Positions 37,718-38,266 of a stretch of 44,101 bases of DNA are shown in pieces. A program made the translations under genes and the position numbers. Numbering within the stretch: position 1 is the stretch's first letter; every line of letters starts with the position of its first letter. The notes below the pieces were generated by a model. That model was given only the letters and a program-made list of their open reading frames with translations, was not told the origin of the DNA and made no database searches. This DNA is from a virus, in the IMG/VR virus record IMGVR_UViG_3300025324_000017, positions 1 to 44,101 of that record; one strand, 5' to 3'.

Positions 37718-38266
37718 GCCTCCTCCTGAAGGACGACCTGCATCGTGCCGTCGGACGCGACGCGCGGCAGCGGCGCGAGGGGCAGCGGCATCGCGTCGGC
37801 CAGGATTTGCAACGCGACGAGGCCGCCCTTCGTCAACCCAACCTCCCGGAAGCCGGCCTTGCGATAGCACCGGCCAGGATCGCGCTTGCGTCGCGTCTTC
37901 GTGGGGTCCACGAACGTGACCATCCCCAACGCAGGCGGCTCCCCGAACGCGTAGCGCGTGACCGCGACGGCCTCCCGGATGAGCGTGCTCGAGAGCGTCG
38001 TGCCTTCGTTGCGGAAGAGGCTGCACACCCACGCCCCCGGCCACGCGTGCCGGACGTACTCTGCATAAGGCCAACTCGTGACCCACAACGCCCTCGCGTC
38101 CCGCGTGAGCAAGACGACGCAGCGGCCCGGCGGCACGAACTGCGGCGACCCAACCTTCTGCCGGTTATAGTGACGATCCGCGAGAGGAAGCGCGCGTTCG
38201 TCGAAGCGATGCGACTCGTGCCAATACGCCGCTCTCTCTCTCTCTCTCTCTCTCTCTCTCTCTCAA
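37714..38266 (-). CDS. mom: Mom-like (GNAT-fold) DNA-modification protein, apparently phase-off
   Basis: CSLFRNEGTTLSSTLIREAV, LGMVTFVDPTK, DPGRCYRKAGFR and GLTKGGLVALQI match the Mu Mom-like family that modifies adenine in DNA. Conserved-looking sequence (YWHESHRFDERALPLADRHY, NRQKVGSPQF) extends upstream of the first in-frame standard start, GTG 38136, up to 38262. The expected coupled start is TTG 38266 (TTGA with the methyltransferase stop), but a (GA)16 tract leaves it out of frame; that frame ends at a TAA after about 35 codons. One more GA, or two fewer, would restore it. Confidence 0.75.
38232..38264 (-). repeat. (GA)16 dinucleotide tract at the start of the Mom-like gene
   Basis: Thirty-three nt of perfect alternating CT on the plus strand, immediately inside the TTG start. 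By far the longest mononucleotide or dinucleotide tract I see in the window. Confidence 0.97.

Follow-up and report, generated by a model that had tools for sequence, protein, structure and literature searches.

The stretch of DNA analysed here (the window) comprises positions 1 to 44,101 of IMG/VR virus record IMGVR_UViG_3300025324_000017, 44,101 nucleotides in all. Its subject is a junction on the minus strand at which a DNA methyltransferase gene is followed by a gene for a Mom-like protein of the GNAT family, with an uninterrupted tract of 16 GA units between the stop codon of the one and the conserved core of the other. The tract is probably a slippage switch for the Mom-like gene. The features at this locus are as follows.

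38263..39861, minus strand: DNA methyltransferase upstream of the Mom-like gene (PF01555 N6_N4_Mtase, phrog_67).
38274..38278, minus strand: GGAGG Shine-Dalgarno (SD) sequence, 7 nt upstream of TTG 38266.
38264..38266, minus strand: TTG, the probable native start of the Mom-like gene, judged from the SD, the TTGA overlap, homologue starts and allele translations; out of frame at 16 units.
38263..38265, minus strand: TGA that ends the methyltransferase; it shares the TTGA with the TTG and supplies the first GA unit.
38233..38264, minus strand: (GA)16 tract, the proposed slippage switch, read directly from the sequence, with a trailing G at 38232.
37714..38232, minus strand: coding region of the Mom-like GNAT, following the tract (phrog_24928, a family with no named function, E=1.2e-54).
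38223-38221, minus strand: invariant Trp codon of the Mom-like core.
38172-38167, minus strand: His-Tyr codons of the Mom-like core.
38165..38167, minus strand: TAA closing the TTG-initiated frame of the recorded allele, 33 codons after the TTG.
38134..38136, minus strand: GTG, the only standard in-frame start in the recorded allele, at core codon 33; a protein begun here would lack core residues 1-32, Trp4 and His21-Tyr22 among them.

On the minus strand the 3' end of the methyltransferase gene, ...GCGGAGGCGGACTCTTGA, is directly continuous with (GA)16, which is followed by GCGGCGTATTGG, and the elements of the junction are arranged in the order GGAGG, CGGACTC, TTGA, (GA)n. Tandem Repeats Finder reports the tract as 16.5 copies with a 100% match. 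It is the sole long pure repeat of a short unit within the window, where the other such repeats span at most 18 bases; next in length come (GGGGGT)3, two runs of a trinucleotide repeated 4 times and dinucleotide runs of 5 units. About 1e-14 (GA)16 tracts would be expected from a first-order Markov model in a window of this length and composition (44 kb, 65% GC). The tract is long, pure, far above chance and built from a unit whose length is not a multiple of 3, and the number of units decides the frame of the TTG relative to the gene; these are properties of bacterial contingency loci. Base composition is continuous across the tract, with no sign of a chimeric assembly joined at this point.

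The 16 GA units at the TTGA junction leave TTG 38266 out of frame with the Mom-like domain in the recorded allele, as the first-pass annotation had read it. When frames were computed for 2-20 units, unit numbers that are 2 modulo 3 (14, 17 and 20) placed the TTG in the Mom-like frame, and translation of the alleles bore out the earlier claim that the frame is restored by adding one unit (17) or removing two (14). The frame opened by the TTG in the recorded allele does end at a TAA (38167-38165), but after 33 codons rather than the 35 or so given previously. Similarly, the open reading frame (ORF) of the Mom-like protein extends to 38262 as had been stated, but its conservation reaches only to about 38223, the invariant Trp, and stops short of the tract. 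In the recorded allele the Mom-like frame is the methyltransferase's own frame continued past the TGA, and from that stop to GTG 38136 it contains no ATG, GTG, TTG, CTG or ATN codon. A near-cognate in-frame start was rejected, there being none present.

TTG 38266 is well supported by sequence comparison as the native start because GGAGG lies 7 nt upstream of it, it overlaps the methyltransferase stop as TTGA, the same layout recurs at the next gene (AGGAGGAGGC-TTGA at 37717), and homologues start close to the invariant Trp. The first-pass annotation had expected this codon from stop-start coupling. GGAGG at a comparable spacing is found at only about 1-2% of positions. The homologue set consisted of 80 IMG/VR loci and 26 loci from genome contigs. 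These homologues align from the Trp (38223-38221) onward, and in alignment A1, of 52 sequences, the Trp, His21 and Tyr22 are invariant. The start codon is 1-7 codons upstream of the Trp in 77 of the 79 viral homologues scored, and exactly 2 codons upstream in 51; the outliers are L011 (9 codons) and L042 (20 codons). Start positions at the 26 genomic loci resemble those of the viral homologues. Homologue starts at the position of GTG 38136, which the first-pass annotation had named among its grounds for refutation, were not seen: homologues begin just ahead of the Trp. A start at this GTG was rejected since it would delete the invariant Trp, a β-strand and the conserved His-Tyr. A version of the gene with only (GA)2 reads TTG AGA GCG GCG TAT TGG (M-R-A-A-Y-W), with the start 5 codons upstream of the Trp as in several homologues, and is a plausible ancestral start. 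The simplest history would be that an ordinary start, coupled through TTGA, had GAGA at its second codon and that this GAGA expanded.

The Mom-like protein is not named by Pfam or NCBIfam, and its profile matched no PDB sequence. An AlphaFold2 model calculated from alignment A1 has a confident GNAT fold (predicted local distance difference test score 92.7, predicted template modelling score 0.87). When the model was compared with known structures by VIA-align 2, Mu Mom (8bv8_A, the inactive S124A form) ranked fifth, with Z 12.1 and a root-mean-square deviation of 2.8 Å over 132 residues, tied with other GNAT acetyltransferases, and therefore the fold alone does not single out Mom. The label rests instead on key residues: H58-Y59, S124, D149 and Y159 of Mu Mom are aligned with H21-Y22, S82, D109 and Y123 of the Mom-like protein, and R111 of Mu Mom probably corresponds to R74, an assignment made from the pattern alone, since the automatic alignment has a gap at that point. 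We take H58, Y59, R111, S124, D149 and Y159 to be functional residues of Mu Mom, partly from the title of 8bv8 and partly from general knowledge. In A1, R74 and S82 are invariant along with H21 and Y22, and D109 is conserved in at least 90% of sequences. Profile comparison with Mu Mom by hhalign gave a weak match (probability 0.7%, E 0.075) that is collinear over 51 columns, and the two proteins belong to different PHROGs (24928 for the Mom-like protein and 1384 for Mu Mom). The core has no stops, retains every invariant residue and reaches 79% identity to homologues. The description as Mom-like made from the sequence alone is well supported by the modeled structure and these residues, and the protein would presumably have DNA-modifying activity.

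GA tracts in other phage genes provide the analogies on which a switch at the Mom-like gene can be judged. No other Mom-like gene with a GA tract was found, two pattern matches considered as such being unrelated. A scan of IMG/VR for TGA(GA)10+ returned only 65 stretches. One of these belongs to a D12-class adenine methyltransferase (PF02086) in L244, which is the same as L287; it has (GA)11 near its 5' end and is in frame. Its relatives have a tract at the same site, with (GA)8 in frame in L288, (GA)7 out of frame in L289 and (GA)4 in frame in L290. L288 and L289 come from different samples and differ across about 3.6 kb by one GA unit only.

L288:2414-3112: D12-class Dam-type gene (IMG/VR 3300013382_000001 and 3300014039_000089 for L288 and L289).

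In this pair the tract is located about 20 codons inside the gene, with MRYLGGKSR, an N-terminal motif, before it and LVSLFCG after it. These records show one phage modification gene directly in two alleles of different frame, with the caveat that an assembly error in one sample would have the same appearance.

A broader survey covered 48 ORFs of at least 110 codons that start immediately behind (GA/CT)10+ tracts in the loci fetched, classified with Pfam and PHROGs. The DNA methyltransferases among them are the D12 enzyme of L244, a PF05869 Dam in L262 and a PF01555 N6/N4 enzyme in L183, placed in this class from its DPPY context. Also present were four PAPS-reductase-like proteins (phrog_424) and one queuine-transglycosylase-like protein (L255), and the others include integrase, chaperonin, tail and Avd genes. 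The Dam gene of L262 (6200-6743), behind (GA)12, has the geometry of the Mom-like gene, with an ATG at the stop-start junction that is out of frame; the N6/N4 methyltransferase of L183, with (GA)16, is in frame. Among the PAPS-reductase-like genes, L096 with (GA)16 is in frame whereas L114 with (GA)21 is out of frame, the two proteins being 37-40% identical with the tract at a homologous site. L092 (17 units) and L191 (19 units), 56% identical and also with homologous tract sites, are both in frame; L191 had appeared to be out of frame, an impression rejected on comparison with L092. Modification-type genes, with the PAPS-like genes counted as such though only possibly so, account for 8 of the 48 tract ORFs as compared with 7-8 of 130 random ORFs from the same loci (Fisher p 0.03-0.04). 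Methyltransferases alone are not enriched beside tracts (p 0.45; 48 versus 130 ORFs). A stop-start overlap with an SD and a tract gave only three pattern matches in IMG/VR, for which no excess is claimed, and one of them is coding (L240/L242, GTGA(GA)13, in frame). Differences in tract length are common, if not universal, between contigs with identical or near-identical flanks (for example 16/18, 15/17 and 32/37).

Because both phases are found at analogous phage modification-type loci, including two alleles of one virus, a switch at the Mom-like gene is likely by analogy. In the proposed mechanism, a hypermutable GA tract would lie at the second codon of a Mom-like gene for DNA modification whose translation is coupled to that of the methyltransferase, and gain or loss of GA units by slipped-strand mispairing would move the SD-TTG start into or out of the Mom-like frame. 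Unit numbers that are 2 modulo 3 (14, 17) would be ON and the recorded 16 would be OFF. Among ON alleles a change of length would alter only an Arg-Glu N-terminal extension, since RE/ER repeats are free of stops in any frame. We judge it probable that this is a contingency locus of the slipped-strand kind and that the record shows its OFF phase, where slippage, its reversibility and the gain or loss of DNA modification as the phenotype would follow from this arrangement. That GA-tract phase variation is a recurrent phage switch for DNA-modification genes (Dam-type methyltransferases, PAPS-reductase/DndC-like and Mom-like), keeping a virus population in mixed states of modification as a hedge against restriction by the host or defences that depend on modification, is a wider proposal that we put forward tentatively.

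Several observations weigh against a switch at this gene. The recorded allele is OFF, and a second allele of the Mom-like locus was not found: a pattern search with exact flanks gave 0 matches to other tract lengths, and neither methyltransferase relatives nor phage records yielded a near relative with a different length. The comparison of tracts across the Mom-like family that had been suggested earlier went the same way, with a GA tract at the start site in 0 of 80 viral and 0 of 26 genomic homologues, so the start tract is not conserved in the family. The excess of modification genes beside tracts is modest and post hoc, the categories having been set after the data were seen. Intergenic GA tracts in viral contigs also vary in length without an evident coding effect, as in L127/L271 (32 versus 37 units), a pair rejected as a coding switch because no long ORF follows the tract.

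The absence of the tract from all the Mom-like homologues examined, and the occurrence of GA tracts between genes as well as within them, would also fit a neutral or decaying tract, in which a TTGAGAG start expanded by chance and inactivated a modification gene that was dispensable, switching not being under selection; phage modification genes are, in general, frequently lost. Against it stand the stop-free core, with its invariant residues kept and its identity to homologues, and the presence of similar tracts in unrelated phage modification-type genes, at homologous sites of diverged genes and in both phases, and we consider this account unlikely. It is similarly improbable that, with a genuine tract and a functional gene, the count on record is off by one, through stutter in the polymerase chain reaction or the assembly consensus, the true majority being 17 units and ON. 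Dinucleotide tracts as long as this one are prone to one-unit stutter, a tract of 17 units would be in frame, and the Mom-like coding core is intact and conserved; but contig pairs of the same virus elsewhere frequently agree exactly in length (17/17, 16/16/16, 15/15 and 13/13), and even with a miscounted length the tract would still be a candidate hypermutable locus. Far less probable is production of the protein despite its frame, either by readthrough of the TGA to give a methyltransferase-Mom fusion or through ribosomes slipping by -2 within the GA repeat. The Mom-like frame does directly continue the methyltransferase frame after the TGA, and codon-anticodon pairing would be regained after a 2-nt slip on GAG-AGA, but readthrough would be superfluous at other tract lengths given a well-placed SD-TTG start, and no relative shares the junction in which a recoding signal could be compared.

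In bacteria, surface genes and restriction-modification genes are well known to be switched on and off by repeats, and the simple-sequence-repeat contingency loci of bacteria include phase-variable mod methyltransferase genes. The GA tract shares with bacterial loci such as sabA and mod a long pure GA/CT dinucleotide repeat in the 5' end of a coding sequence, whose units shift the frame on or off, but differs from them in that the gene is viral and Mom-like, the repeat is right at a stop-start overlap, and the locus is known here from the sequence of one allele. The sabA gene of Helicobacter pylori has its CT tract within the 5' end of the coding region (PMC4081817). The mom operon of phage Mu resembles the present locus in encoding a Mom-type GNAT, by fold and key residues, and in the overlap of the modification gene with the preceding gene (com/mom). 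Tight control of expression would be a further likeness, exerted in Mu by Dam/OxyR and Com; but Mu mom has epigenetic and translational regulators and no repeat, the upstream gene is com rather than a methyltransferase, and the similarity of the two proteins is below confident profile detection. The Dam genes of L288/L289 are likewise DNA modification genes in which the number of GA units sets the frame, but they encode an unrelated D12-class enzyme, have the tract about 20 codons inside, and represent one virus by two recorded alleles. The first-pass annotation knew of no such geometry in a Mom-type viral gene, and no report of repeat switching in phage-borne DNA-modification genes was found in the open-access literature, which is weak evidence of absence. 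If the switch is real, modified and unmodified genomes would coexist in one phage population, a hedge between two kinds of host, those restricting DNA that is unmodified and those attacking DNA that is modified, and genes of this kind would be routinely mis-recorded as truncated or absent in assembled phage genomes.

The Mom-like gene is followed by a further gene on the same strand.

37079..37717, minus strand: gene downstream of the Mom-like gene (phrog_15826), beginning at the TTG in TTGA 37717-37714 with AGGAGGAGG upstream.

This gene also has a weak match to phrog_887 (queuine tRNA-ribosyltransferase-like), and may form a DNA-modification cluster with the methyltransferase. A possibly similar gene is present in L255, behind a (GA)14 tract. 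A conserved adjacency of methyltransferase and Mom genes was considered and rejected, as methyltransferases are near few of the homologues and none has the same junction. Nine perfect hairpins are present in two clusters (1725-2116 and 37669-39524); their arms measure 11-22 bases and their loops 3-9, where shuffled sequences lead to an expectation of 0-1. Four of them are within the methyltransferase gene (38482-38532, 38853-38880, 39057-39088 and 39497-39524) and resemble short palindromic insertions. Both ends of the window, 1-178 and 43960-44101, are in one 12/24-bp tandem array (CGCCGCCGAGNN, encoding AAE repeats), which suggests that the genome is circular or permuted and that the contig was broken inside a single repeat gene.
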